Below, one piece after another: positions 448 to 12,495 of a stretch of 38,616 nt of DNA. This DNA comes from Candidatus Naiadarchaeum limnaeum (GTDB lineage Archaea > Undinarchaeota > Undinarchaeia > Undinarchaeales > Naiadarchaeaceae). Positions within the stretch are counted from its first letter, which is position 1. The number at the start of each line of letters is the position of its first letter. The stretch covers positions 1-38,616 of the forward strand of contig DVAB01000029.1 in the NCBI GenBank assembly GCA_014189685.1, in the 5' to 3' direction. Under the pieces are notes generated by a model, which did no database searches, was not told where the DNA came from, and saw only the letters and a program-made list of their open reading frames with translations. The translations under genes were made by a program, and so were the position numbers.

Positions 448-963
448 ATGAAAATAATTGAAAAAATAAAAAAACTGTTTGAGCCAAAAATTGCTTACGC
501 CCACTGTGATATACCATGCGGAATTTATGATCCACATTTAGCCCAAGTTGCAGCGCACACTGTTGTCAGGATGGGTATGCTGATTGATGAACTAACTGCA
601 AAGATGAATGCCAACCCAAACCCATCTGTAGAAGACAGGCGGGATTTTGTGCACAAACTTTCACGATACACAGAAATAAAAGAACACCATGCAGAAATTG
701 CTAAGCACGAAGTGCGAATACTTTGGGGCGACTATTTCAAGCCAGAGCACGTTCAGAAATATTCGGAGCTGCACGATTTAGTATGGAAGGTAATGAAGGC
801 TGGCTCAAAAGCAAAGCAGGAAGCCAATTTAAAGACCGCAGAGGAGCTGCTCGAGAGTGTTGAAAAAATTGCAGAGATTTTTTGGAAAACCAAAAACATT
901 GAGCCTGTAAAGAGAAAATCGTTCTACATAACAGAGAGGACTCTAGTATATCCAAAATTGTAA
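448..963 (+). CDS. sodN: Nickel superoxide dismutase precursor (SodN)
   Basis: The protein has 171 residues. Residues 19-25 read HCDIPCG, followed by IYDP, which is the nickel-hook signature of Ni-SOD (HCxxPCGxYDP). In known Ni-SODs a propeptide is removed so that the new N-terminal His and two Cys bind nickel. Here an 18-residue basic propeptide ends in AYA directly before His19, a signal-peptidase-like cut site, leaving a mature chain of about 153 residues. The rest is helical and charged, as expected for the four-helix bundle that forms hexamers. The enzyme dismutates superoxide to oxygen and peroxide. Start ATG 448 is set by GGAGGT at 436-441. sodX follows after one base, and a peroxiredoxin precedes. 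Confidence 0.93.
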   Translation: MKIIEKIKKLFEPKIAYAHCDIPCGIYDPHLAQVAAHTVVRMGMLIDELTAKMNANPNPSVEDRRDFVHKLSRYTEIKEHHAEIAKHEVRILWGDYFKPEHVQKYSELHDLVWKVMKAGSKAKQEANLKTAEELLESVEKIAEIFWKTKNIEPVKRKSFYITERTLVYPKL

Positions 964-964
964 G

Positions 965-1279
965 ATGACTGGACTTTTTAAGATTGAGGGGCACAGTATG
1001 GAGCCAGCTATTAAAGCTGGGCAATATTTTTTAGTCCTGAATTTTACGGGGCCGAAAGTGAACGATATTATTATCGTTAAACATCAGAAAAAAAGCATAT
1101 TTTTAGTTAAACGAGTGAAAGCTGTTTTGAAAGAAGGGAAATATTTAGTTGAAGGTGACAATCCAGGGCATAGCGAAGATAGTAGAAAATTTGGGGCAAT
1201 AAAAGAGGAACAAATTGTTGGAAAACTAAGTTTTTGTTTTTGGCCGCTGCAGAAATTTGGATTTGTGAAAAGGAGGTGA
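965..1279 (+). CDS. sodX: SodX-like S26 peptidase for Ni-SOD maturation
   Basis: This 104-residue protein belongs to the signal peptidase I (S26) family. It has the serine motif GHSMEPAI (Ser11), a lysine region LVKRVKAV, and the later GDNPGHSEDSR box. It lacks an obvious N-terminal membrane anchor, and a short soluble form is typical of the SodX proteases encoded beside sodN. It should cut the SodN propeptide before His19 so that nickel can bind. It starts one base after the sodN stop, so the two are almost certainly cotranscribed and translationally coupled. Its last codons contain the SD of the following micro-ORF. The name rests on family plus context. Confidence 0.88.
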   Translation: MTGLFKIEGHSMEPAIKAGQYFLVLNFTGPKVNDIIIVKHQKKSIFLVKRVKAVLKEGKYLVEGDNPGHSEDSRKFGAIKEEQIVGKLSFCFWPLQKFGFVKRR

Positions 1280-2046: not shown

Positions 2047-2055
2047 TATTTAAAT
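2047..2055. promoter_or_regulatory. Divergent TATA box (UlaG-like gene / half-SWIB gene)
   Basis: TATTTAAAT is nearly self-complementary and lies about 30-40 bases from both divergent starts (2017 and 2095). Each gene also has a GGAGGT SD, so both probably have short leaders. Confidence 0.5.
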
Positions 2056-2094
2056 CATTTATTCATATGCAAAATAAATTATACGGAGGTTAGA

Positions 2095-2385
2095 ATGGCA
2101 AAGAAAGGAAAAGCTTTTGGCGGAATGATGATAAAGCCAGACGCAGTGCTTGGAAAAGTTATAGGTAGCGCAAAACAAGCTCCATCAAAAATGACAAAAA
2201 ATCTTTGGGGCTATTTTAAAAGGAGAAAACTTTTAAAGAAAACAGCTACAGGGCCATTTGGTGGATTGAAAGTTAAGCCAGACGCAATGTTGGGAAAAGT
2301 TACTGGCAACGCAATGATACCGCCAACGCAGGTGTTCAAGAAAGTTTGGGCCTACATAAAGAGAAAGAAATTAACTGCAAAATAA
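2095..2385 (+). CDS. Tandem half-SWIB repeat protein
   Basis: The 96-residue basic protein is two copies of one 42-residue unit, residues 8-49 and 55-96, which align without gaps at 22 of 42 positions. Each unit resembles the first half of a SWIB/MDM2 domain: a KPDAxLGKVxG helix start, then Pro and a helix ending in WxYxKRxKL, like the KKLWDYIK helix of SWIB proteins. The usual second half of SWIB is absent from both. Full SWIB domains (about 75 residues) are protein-interaction modules linked to chromatin in eukaryotes and Chlamydia. Here two identical halves could fold against each other, which is inference. SD GGAGGT at 2085-2090 fixes the start. The high Lys/Arg content allows nucleic-acid contact. 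Confidence 0.72.
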   Translation: MAKKGKAFGGMMIKPDAVLGKVIGSAKQAPSKMTKNLWGYFKRRKLLKKTATGPFGGLKVKPDAMLGKVTGNAMIPPTQVFKKVWAYIKRKKLTAK

Positions 2386-3392: not shown

Positions 3393-4850
3393 TTACCCTT
3401 TCACATTCCCAATTGGAATAAATCGCACAACTTTCCTAGAAATGTCAGCTCTGTGAACAGCATCTATTACATCATCTATATCTTTGTAGGCTGGCCCAGC
3501 CTCCTCTGCCAATCCTGAAAAGGTAACTGTGCGCACATAAATCCCTCTCTGTTCCATTTCTTTTTGTAACTGCTCGCCGCGGTACATATGCTTTGCTTTT
3601 GTGCGGGACATTGTGCGACCGCTTCCATGACAAGTTGAACCAAAAGTTTCATTCATTGCTCCTTCTGTGCCGACTAAAAGATATGATCCTGTTTCCATCG
3701 AGCCTCCAATTATTATTGGCTGGCCGACTTTTCTGTATTTCTCAATAATTTCTTCTCTTCCAGGGCCGAATGCGCGAGTCGCGCCTTTTCTATGGACTAA
3801 AACTTCTTTTGTTTCTCCATCAATTTTGTGCTTTTCAATTTTTGCAGTATTGTGCGCAACATCATAAACCATGCGCAATCCTAATTTTTCTGCATCCTGT
3901 TTTAAAACTTTTGAAAAAACTTCTCTTATGCGATGCAAAATAACTTGCCTGTTTACAAAGCTCATATTTATTGCGCCTTTCATTGCAGCAAAATAATCTT
4001 GGCCTTCGGGAGAATTAAAAGGCGCGCATGCCAATTCGCGGTCAAGAATTTTAATTCCATACTTGCGCTCCATTACGGATAGAAATTTTTCAAGATAATC
4101 AGATGCAACTTGATGACCAAATCCGCGCGAGCCGCAATGAAACATGATTACAATTTGATTTGGAATTGTAATGCCGAATGTTTCTGCAATTTTTTTGTCA
4201 AAAACAAATTCAGGCTTTGCAACTTGGATTTCTAAATAGTGATTTCCGCTTCCAAGCGTTCCAATTTGAGAAAGCCCGCGCTTGATTGCCTTATCAGAAA
4301 TTTTTGAAACATCCACGCCCTCAATTCTTCCGTTTTCTTCTGTAAATTCTAAGTCCTCTTTCCACCCATAGCCTTTCTCAACGCACCACTCAGAGCCATC
4401 TGTTGTAATTTTTTTAAATTCAGCAGCGTTTAATTTTACAAATCCGCTTGCCCCGACTCCGGCCGGAACTTTGTGAAAGAGTTCGTCAACCAATTGTTTT
4501 AAATGAGGTTTTATATCATCATAAGTTAAATTTGTTGTAACTAAACGCATTCCGCAATTAATGTCAAAGCCAATTCCACCAGGGGAAATAACTCCATCAT
4601 TGTTTATGTCCATTGCAGCAACCCCGCCAATTGGAAATCCATAGCCTGAATGGCCATCTGGCATACAATAAGCGTATTTTAAAATTCCAGGCAGAGTTGC
4701 AACATTTGTAATCTGTTCATAAACTTGCAAATCCATTTCGCGCGCAAGCTTTTCAGTAGCGTAAATTCTTGCTGGGACGCGCATTCCTGGCTTAAAAGTT
4801 TTTGGAATTTCCCAGACAGTATCTGAAATTTTTTTCAGTTGCTCAAACAT
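3393..4850 (-). CDS. rtcB: RNA-splicing ligase RtcB
   Basis: RtcB joins 2',3'-cyclic phosphate and 5'-OH RNA ends in archaeal tRNA splicing, using GTP and manganese. The 485 residues contain all expected ligands: Asp96 and Cys99 in FDINCG, His204 in SGNHYLE, His238 in MFHCGSRG, His333 in DVAHN, and the guanylylated His408 in CHGSGR. Spacing matches the Pyrococcus enzyme closely and there is no intein. The activator archease is encoded just upstream on the same strand, separated by a broken gene on the opposite strand. A minus-strand TATA-like CTTTTTTATAG lies about 30 bases before the start. Confidence 0.97.
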   Translation of the reverse strand: MFEQLKKISDTVWEIPKTFKPGMRVPARIYATEKLAREMDLQVYEQITNVATLPGILKYAYCMPDGHSGYGFPIGGVAAMDINNDGVISPGGIGFDINCGMRLVTTNLTYDDIKPHLKQLVDELFHKVPAGVGASGFVKLNAAEFKKITTDGSEWCVEKGYGWKEDLEFTEENGRIEGVDVSKISDKAIKRGLSQIGTLGSGNHYLEIQVAKPEFVFDKKIAETFGITIPNQIVIMFHCGSRGFGHQVASDYLEKFLSVMERKYGIKILDRELACAPFNSPEGQDYFAAMKGAINMSFVNRQVILHRIREVFSKVLKQDAEKLGLRMVYDVAHNTAKIEKHKIDGETKEVLVHRKGATRAFGPGREEIIEKYRKVGQPIIIGGSMETGSYLLVGTEGAMNETFGSTCHGSGRTMSRTKAKHMYRGEQLQKEMEQRGIYVRTVTFSGLAEEAGPAYKDIDDVIDAVHRADISRKVVRFIPIGNVKG

Positions 4851-4919: not shown

Positions 4920-5218
4920 ATGGAACCGATTGAGAGAGTGTTTGAAACAAAGCGTTATGAAGAATCTGGTGTCAGAAAGGGCACAAGAAGTATACCGGCA
5001 CACGAAGCTGGACTATCCATTTCAGAAGCAAAAAAGGAGAATTGCAGCTCGTGGTAGGTAGAGGGGAAGTTTTTATAAAAGGAACATTGAAAAAAGGCAT
5101 TTTTAAAAAAGAATACTATGAAAAGTCATTTGGAAGTGTAGACGATTTGGGAACTATAGAATTGGCACAGGAAAAAATAATTGAGCTTTTGAGAACTAAA
5201 TATCCAAAACAAAAATAG
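4920..5218 (+). pseudogene. Unknown small gene with a -1 frameshift at a slippery A-run
   Basis: ATG 4920 opens 45 codons that end at TAG 5055-5057. A second frame, open through 5033-5218, continues with GELQLVVGRGEVFIKG and ends in a Lys-rich helix. The two frames join by a -1 shift at AAAAAAG (5030-5036), read in the zero frame as A AAA AAG, the same heptamer used in E. coli dnaX. Joined, the product is about 98 residues of unknown family. It may be a disrupted gene, a homopolymer sequencing error, programmed frameshifting, or two cistrons (GGAG at 5036-5039 precedes TTG and GTG codons). The 3' end overlaps archease by 23 bases on the opposite strand. A TATA-like TTATTTAG lies about 25 bases before the ATG. 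Confidence 0.55.
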
Positions 5219-5654
5219 CGCGCCAGCCTTTTCTAACTTTTTTTTCAACATCGTCAAAAGTAAACTGCTCAACTTTTAGCATGTGCCTTGTTATTGCTTT
5301 TACATCTGTGCGCATTTTTTTCGGATCTTGAGTGATTTTTTCTCCATATGCAGTTGCTTCCAAAACATATTTTTTCCCTTTTTGTTGAATATTTACATCA
5401 AATTTTCCAAACCATAAATATTCAGCATCCTTCAAATAAATTAATTGTTCGAGCCATTTAAACAACAAATCATCTAATTTTTCACCCTCAACTTTTATTT
5501 CGCGGGTTTCAGAGCTTCCAACAGCAAAAATATCCACCATTTCTGAAAAAGTTGCCAGTGCTGCATCTCTGAAAATTTCGTTTAAATCTTTTCCAATTAC
5601 TTCAAAAGCTGCGTCTGCAATTGAGATATCTTCTAAAGGGCGGTAGGGGGTCAT
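5196..5654 (-). CDS. Archease, RtcB cofactor
   Basis: The 152-residue protein matches archease, which speeds guanylylation of RtcB and broadens its substrates. The N-terminal segment YRPLEDISIADAAFEVIG corresponds to the YxxLEHTADxxxxxYG start of the family, with Asp9 where many members have His. The C-terminal segment VKAITRHML matches the conserved DxKAxTYHxL region, and an acidic metal-binding C-terminus (FVLDI) is present. It is encoded upstream of rtcB on the same strand. Its leader carries the palindromic element at 5672-5705, and the start is only weakly defined because no clear SD is seen. Confidence 0.9.
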   Translation of the reverse strand: MTPYRPLEDISIADAAFEVIGKDLNEIFRDAALATFSEMVDIFAVGSSETREIKVEGEKLDDLLFKWLEQLIYLKDAEYLWFGKFDVNIQQKGKKYVLEATAYGEKITQDPKKMRTDVKAITRHMLKVEQFTFDDVEKKVRKGWRAIFVLDI

Positions 5655-10957: not shown

Positions 10958-11395
10958 TTAGAGAGCTGGTCTTGTTGTTACAAAACCGCTTTGCCCTAAC
11001 TCACGAGTTGTGACCCCAACAGCTGCATCATTCTTTAATACGAATGCTTGCGCAGTTACTTCGTTCTCGCCCAGTTCGTGTTTTTCTTCAATAGTAACCT
11101 TGAACGCCCTAGTTTCCCACCTATTAGGATATCTCTTATCATGGTCTGCAACTATTCTTCCAAATTGTGATTGAGTTAGCTCATATAAAACACCATTAAC
11201 TTTGATTTTCTCCCCCTGCGGGAGAATGCCATATGGAATAAGGGTCTTAAAACCTAGTGCTTTCCAAAAAAGAAAAGGCGCGCAAATTGAGGCTTTTAGA
11301 GAAGATTTTCCAAGAGGTCCCATTATTCTTCGCTCTAAAACAGAAATAGTCCGGTCAGTTCCATATGAAAAATAATAAACTGTTTCTTTTGGCAT
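10958..11395 (-). CDS. Gamma-glutamylcyclotransferase-like (AIG2/GGCT fold) protein
   Basis: About 145 residues. The N-terminal YYFSYGTDRTISVLERRI corresponds to the YFAYGSNM start of GGCT/AIG2-like proteins, and VNGVLYELTQSQFGRIV resembles their V-x-G-x-LY-x-L strand. The catalytic Glu normally found after the core strand is not obvious, so activity is uncertain. Family members cyclise gamma-glutamyl groups or simply keep the fold. I take ATG 11395 as the start; a TTG three codons upstream is weaker. It lies just upstream of ndk on the same strand, with the ribosomal genes further upstream. Confidence 0.65.
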   Translation of the reverse strand: MPKETVYYFSYGTDRTISVLERRIMGPLGKSSLKASICAPFLFWKALGFKTLIPYGILPQGEKIKVNGVLYELTQSQFGRIVADHDKRYPNRWETRAFKVTIEEKHELGENEVTAQAFVLKNDAAVGVTTRELGQSGFVTTRPAL

Positions 11396-11426
11396 AGGTA
11401 TCAAAAATTAAGGGTTAGCTGAGGTT

Positions 11427-11973: not shown

Positions 11974-12495
11974 TTATTTTTTCTTCTCAGTTTTTGGCTT
12001 GTGCTCGGCAATCGGCTTATGTTCTGGTGCGTGGTGCGGCGCTGCTGGTTTGTGCTCTGCTGGTTTATGTTCTACTGGCTTATGCTCAACTGGTTTTACC
12101 TCTGGTGTGTGATGTGCTGGTGTTGCAGATGCTTTTTTGCCAGATTTCAAATCCTTTAATTTTGTTGCCAAGTCATGCACAATTGCTTTTGCCTCTCCGG
12201 CCTCAACAATTGCTGCGCTTGCTGTTCCAACTGTCAAACCGCTTACTTTGCCCAATTCCTCTTTGCGCGGTACAAAAAGATATGGAATGTCTTTCTCATC
12301 GCACAAAATAGGCAAATGAGCAACAACTTCTGGCGGCTGGACATCCTCTGCAATCGCAACTAGTAAAGCCTGCTTTCGCTCAACAGCTTTTGTAGTTTCA
12401 TTTGTTCCCTTTCTTAATTTTCCAGAGTCCTTAGCCAAACTAAAAGCCTGATATGCCTTGTCGATTAAATCCTTTGGAACTTCGAATTTTGCCAT
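11974..12495 (-). CDS. rpl7ae: Ribosomal protein L7Ae with His-rich repetitive tail
   Basis: Residues 1-120 are a complete archaeal L7Ae, a kink-turn RNA-binding protein of the ribosome, box C/D and H/ACA RNPs and RNase [21 protein letters not shown] and [14 protein letters not shown] are diagnostic. Residues 121-173 form an unusual low-complexity tail with five EHKP units (mostly V/A-EHKP), two HH pairs and nine histidines, ending in KTEKKK. Typical archaeal L7Ae is about 120-125 residues and lacks this tail. It opens the L7Ae-S28e-L24e run. The SD GAGGTGA is followed by AAGAACT before the ATG, next to a small CTCT-GAAA-AGAG hairpin. Confidence 0.95.

Follow-up and report, generated by a model that had tools for sequence, protein, structure and literature searches.

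The SWIB/MDM2 fold, which is the p53-binding fold of MDM2, is said (by Kussie in 1996 and in SCOP) to consist of two structurally similar halves with little similarity in sequence. Small nucleoid proteins are poorly known in DPANN and ammonia-oxidising archaea. Among small SWIB proteins, that of Waddlia was found bound along the whole genome (PMC6426960), and the plastid SWIB-4, which carries an H1 motif, was shown to bind and compact DNA and to complement an E. coli hns mutant (PMC4154389). Here we describe a protein from Candidatus Naiadarchaeum limnaeum in which the first-half type of the SWIB sequence is present twice in tandem. With a probability of roughly 0.6, we consider it a covalent half-SWIB dimer that forms one near-symmetric, SWIB-like, nucleic-acid-binding domain.

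The gene and its internal repeat

The window, i.e. the whole stretch of DNA analysed, is contig DVAB01000029.1 (assembly GCA_014189685.1), positions 1 to 38,616. An open reading frame with an ATG start encodes a 96-residue protein (MAKKGKAFGGMMIKPDAVLGKVIGSAKQAPSKMTKNLWGYFKRRKLLKKTATGPFGGLKVKPDAMLGKVTGNAMIPPTQVFKKVWAYIKRKKLTAK), and the following features were identified:

2047-2055, forward strand: TATTTAAAT, TATA-box-like by consensus resemblance only, lying 40 bases ahead of the ATG
2085-2089, forward strand: Shine-Dalgarno-like sequence GGAGG, 5 bases before the ATG
2095-2385, forward strand: gene for the tandem half-SWIB protein, 96 residues, 24 K/R, 2 D/E, pI 11.0
2095-2115, forward strand: basic N-terminal tail MAKKGKA, low-confidence in both AlphaFold models
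2116-2241, forward strand: half-SWIB unit 1 (residues 8-49), strand-helix-helix by prediction, Pfam SWIB positions 4-39, 17.1 bits
2242-2256, forward strand: linker TATGP, 5 residues, between units 1 and 2 (alignment A5)
2257-2382, forward strand: half-SWIB unit 2, residues 55-96, Pfam SWIB positions 3-37, 25.2 bits

Ungapped alignment of residues 8-49 with residues 55-96 gives 22/42 identities. When the protein is compared with itself, the best offset (47) gives 22 matches and the runner-up 11, and none of 20,000 residue shuffles reached 22, the shuffle maximum being 18. The two gapless 42-residue units described in the earlier note are therefore real, but its title, which called the halves identical, overstated a likeness of 52% in protein and 58% in DNA. 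Since the units are only that much alike, differ at nearly half of their residues and diverge most at third codon positions of their DNA, an assembly duplication or artefact as source of the repeat was ruled out.

The gene is solitary; it points away from one neighbour and towards the other, and the functions of these neighbours are unrelated. PADLOC and PHROGs searches with the protein gave no match and therefore no hint of a phage or defence function, and neither Rfam families nor tRNA genes were detected in the window. Elsewhere in the window, a nickel superoxide dismutase (448-963, forward strand; Sod_Ni, E 2.8e-45, with HCDIPCGIYDP) is directly followed by an S26/S24 peptidase (965-1279, forward strand), probably its maturation protease; for so small an archaeal genome this pair appears unusual. 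The reverse strand encodes RtcB RNA ligase (3393-4850) and archease (5196-5654), close together as expected of these partners, a 148-residue ORF without a match in Pfam (10958-11404) and an L7Ae-family protein whose odd C-terminal tail consists of EHKP-type repeats and is rich in H, K, E and P (11974-12495).

Match to the SWIB domain and predicted fold

Against Pfam PF02201 (SWIB, cut-off 25 bits), the whole protein scores 39 bits (E 6.7e-10) as two stretches, and this score is the sum of two first-half matches. Searched alone, unit 1 (17.1 bits) covers profile positions 4-39 and unit 2 (25.2 bits) positions 3-37 of 74; both stretches end at 37-39, and a match over all 74 positions, including the specific second half, is absent. 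The SWIB assignment made earlier, and the statement that each unit matches the first half only, were thus confirmed by profile searches, both with Pfam and with the family profile against SWIBs of the PDB. A phmmer search of the PDB with the protein itself returned only a chance uS4 match, SWIB being reached only by the family profile. Unit 2 aligns in register with the SWIB second half, yet it is of the first-half type, retaining W, YIK and KKL, which ordinary SWIB domains do not have in their second half. As it lacks the second half that is specific to the SWIB family, the protein belongs to that family, strictly taken, only in part; it likely works like a SWIB/MDM2 domain.

AlphaFold was run twice, with an alignment that included full SWIBs (A5) and with a control alignment of single halves only (A6), in which unit 2 was covered by no sequence other than the window protein. 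The A5 model reached pLDDT 77.3 and pTM 0.64, and the best A6 model 78.7 and 0.66 with near-identical secondary structure; two of the five A6 models were confident (78.7 and 74.6) and the other three lay at 46-54, values to be read bearing in mind that the network may recall the SWIB fold. For both models, the top Foldseek match in the PDB was the SWIB structure 1v31 (probability 1.00, 77 columns, E 6.0e-4 and 4.1e-4, TM 0.61/0.63); BAF60a, RSC subunits, MDM2 and eIF2D came next, frequently with 85-91 columns aligned. A pseudo-symmetric SWIB/MDM2-like fold made by both halves together, as the earlier note had proposed, was therefore recovered at the level of prediction, with both alignments and over nearly the whole chain, and the models suggest that the two units share one SWIB-like domain. 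Neither outcome that the earlier note had named as refuting, a profile search without SWIB or a prediction of two hairpins lacking SWIB-like packing, was obtained.

A family of free-standing half-SWIB proteins

Profile searches revealed a family of stand-alone half-SWIB proteins, mostly of 50-65 residues with a few longer ones bearing basic tails. The family is apparently undescribed, as our searches of the open-access literature found no mention of it. Of 394 archaeal genomes searched with the first profile (A1), which was made from the two window units and two weak relatives, 23 contained a strong match, the window's own among them. Matches were found in 40 of 87 genomes of one archaeal phylum and, in a later search, in 50 of 156 genomes of a second. 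The genes are almost always single copy, the exceptions (G416 and G547) carrying two each on different contigs, and most single genes are preceded by a good Shine-Dalgarno site of the same kind as that of the window gene. A scan of labelled contigs found 265 with a half-SWIB; the 80 fetched were labelled mainly Diapherotrites, Aenigmatarchaeota, Micrarchaeota, Woesearchaeota, Rokubacteria/Methylomirabilota and Deltaproteobacteria. Together with four from IMG/VR, all 84 fetched half-SWIBs are single units, none with a second SWIB half, a remnant of one or a tandem. Among the members found, only the genome of the window has two units in one ORF, and the window protein thereby departs from the one-unit trait of the family. 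Half-SWIBs also occur in an archaeal family whose genomes (1.4-1.7 Mb, 99% complete) carry archaeal amoA, thus ammonia oxidisers, in which the N-terminal tails are rich in K/S/T.

Conservation is high: F4, G6, G23, P29, K34 and W37 are invariant in 103 distinct sequences, with M32, T33 and K41 conserved at 99%, and in alignment A2, which includes the window units, F, G, G, G, P, K, W and K are invariant. The window units have the FGG start, the G, the PS.MTK..W.Y.K core and the basic C-terminus of the family, the PSEMT part being lost from unit 2. The SWIB profile was matched by 26 of 26 family members, and topoisomerase-SWIB models are also matched by half-SWIBs.

The majority of half-SWIBs are of a long type (FGGYxIxFxGxxxTxExVFG), in which the first strand is followed by three additional residues. 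The short type (FGGxxIxPDxxLxxxxG), to which both window units belong, was found in seven genomes, all from one phylum. With two single short-type half-SWIBs, those of G493 and G495, unit 1 shares 65-68% identity, more than with unit 2 (50%). In a small tree of 44 residues the two units are sisters with a bootstrap of 64%, which weakly suggests that they group together. The proteins most closely related to that of the window being single half-SWIBs, it seems that two of these were fused in this lineage, re-enacting the original SWIB duplication rather than surviving from it. Of the alternatives put forward earlier, "primitive-like or re-duplicated", the former is hence too strong and the latter stands, in the sense of a re-enactment; if anything here is primitive-like, it would be the free half-SWIBs, which the note did not know of, rather than the window protein.

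Several searches gave no further members. There was no half-SWIB match in five other genomes of the window's order (completeness 75-86%), and a scan of contigs with exact 8-mer patterns of the window sequence found no relative, probably on account of the 8-mer requirement. tblastn returned nothing for the window protein against phages and plasmids or for one free half-SWIB against phages, a paired W-x-[FY] DNA pattern in viral contigs gave 68 stretches of which none was a half-SWIB by profile, and no short-type half-SWIB was found in viral contigs. Four IMG/VR viral contigs (L131-L134) do carry half-SWIB genes, that of the 188 kb L133 being divergent, and these could possibly be virus-borne nucleoid proteins. 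In four contigs titled Thaumarchaeota, Falkowbacteria or Chloroflexi (L063, L066, L073 and L084), the half-SWIBs are Diapherotrites-like and the upstream genes are common to Diapherotrites-labelled loci, so their bins are probably mislabelled or contaminated.

Relation of the free halves to full SWIB domains

The half-SWIB profile was built without any full SWIB sequence, and it matches nearly every full SWIB fetched twice, at a spacing of 40 residues and without a change of register (positions of about 15-47 for the first half and 15-41 for the second), the second-half matches being individually weak. SWIBs of the PDB give the same two-place pattern, the second-half match of 1v31 lying above HMMER's reporting threshold. 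In hhalign comparisons, in which the SWIB halves were a narrow sample mostly from proteobacterial plasmids, the half-SWIB matched the SWIB first half at 98% and the second half at 94%, whereas the first half matched the second at only 18%; for the three comparisons put to a shuffle test, the observed score was attained by 0 of 100 column shuffles. With 98% and 94% against 18%, the free half is, at the level of sequence profiles, closer to each SWIB half than those halves are to each other. This is the look expected of their common ancestor, and a truncated and re-adapted SWIB could give the same.

Charge, tails and gene neighbours

The window protein has a net charge of +22, and its relatives have pI values of 9.5-11.9. 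K/R-rich tails like those of histone H1 are present in three half-SWIBs (L245, L246 and L250), reaching 39 K/R per 100 residues in L246, and K-rich tails occur in half-SWIBs of the amoA-bearing archaea. No gene neighbourhood is conserved across half-SWIB lineages, synteny being seen within lineages only. In several Aenigmatarchaeota (L080, L090, L091, L099, L102 and L109), a SepF-like cell-division gene lies about 0.6-1.2 kb upstream on the same strand.

Proposed explanation and alternatives

We propose that a half-SWIB gene was duplicated in tandem and in frame, giving the covalent dimer of the window. Each half would contribute one strand, one short helix and one long helix, and the two would pack round a near-twofold axis into a single SWIB/MDM2-like domain, so that one chain would do the job that two free halves, which probably homodimerise, would do together. 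Given the strongly basic domain and the H1-like tails of close free relatives, architectural nucleic-acid binding is the most likely role, and by analogy with the stand-alone SWIB proteins of Waddlia and of plastids the window protein is probably a basic, nucleoid-type nucleic-acid-binding protein. Basic charge alone is no proof of DNA binding, as MDM2-type domains bind peptides. Indeed, helix-binding clefts are the best-known role of MDM2/SWIB folds, and a peptide-binding adaptor that recruits a partner protein, like MDM2-p53 or the topoisomerase-fused SWIB domains, would agree with the topoisomerase-SWIB models matched by half-SWIBs and with the SWIB of CtTopA, which may contact either protein or DNA (PMC12445093). 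Nevertheless, the very high positive charge, the H1-like tails and the absence of a conserved neighbour gene as dedicated partner make us regard an adaptor as rather unlikely. Less likely again are two independent half-domains, each pairing with a unit of another molecule so that the protein acts as a bivalent linker or forms oligomers; the linker region is indeed longer than that of an ordinary SWIB and three of the five control models did not converge, but in the best model of either run the units come together as one closed SWIB-like domain, which matches solved SWIB/MDM2 structures over 77-91 columns. As the sequence is short and K-rich, even a chance basic helical repeat without SWIB kinship might be imagined, but this is highly improbable and effectively refuted by the Pfam E-value, the large conserved family with its uniform SWIB match and the Foldseek matches.

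The direction of evolution between the halves and the full SWIB we infer from sequence. Perhaps, at somewhat short of even odds, the ancestor that gave rise to the SWIB/MDM2 fold by duplication and fusion lives on in the form of half-SWIB homodimers, the window gene being an independent and more recent replay. Alternatively, and with a slightly smaller chance, half-SWIBs are decayed SWIBs that lost their second half, the rest having learned to homodimerise before the window gene doubled it. Such decay would suit the halves being nearer to the first SWIB half (98%) than to the second (94%) and full SWIBs occurring in proteobacteria and eukaryotes while being rare in archaea. However, simple truncation would not predict the second-half match (94%, against 18% for first to second), and a remnant of the second half was seen in no half-SWIB.

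Comparison with known systems

The series from free half to fused tandem may show how SWIB/MDM2 could have originated by the joining of two identical halves, and with proteins as small as these, of 50 to 96 residues, the supposed duplication origin of the fold would become open to direct bench tests. For DPANN and ammonia-oxidising archaea, half-SWIBs are also a new candidate chromatin protein, as yet without a name, that is widespread and highly conserved. Compared with SWIB/MDM2 domains (PF02201; stand-alone SWIBs of bacteria and plastids, BAF60/Rsc6, UAF30 and MDM2), the window protein has the same first-half sequence and motif order, the same predicted overall fold and a small, basic, stand-alone architecture. 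It differs in its second half, where the first-half type with its W, YIK and KKL recurs in place of the divergent icDekLkalFGkd.vsmfEMnklLskHL, and in its link, TATGP plus FGG, which is longer than the NP.NKR of ordinary SWIBs. With the single half-SWIBs of Diapherotrites, Aenigmatarchaeota, Micrarchaeota, amoA-bearing archaea and Rokubacteria it shares the unit, the FGG start and the basic C-terminus; those have one unit each and are mostly of the long type, whereas the window protein has two and is closest to the short type. SWIB-4 of chloroplast nucleoids and Wcw_0377 of Waddlia are likewise small SWIB proteins with DNA association, and although both have full two-half domains, unlike half-SWIBs, the H1-like segment of SWIB-4 resembles the K/R tails of some half-SWIBs.
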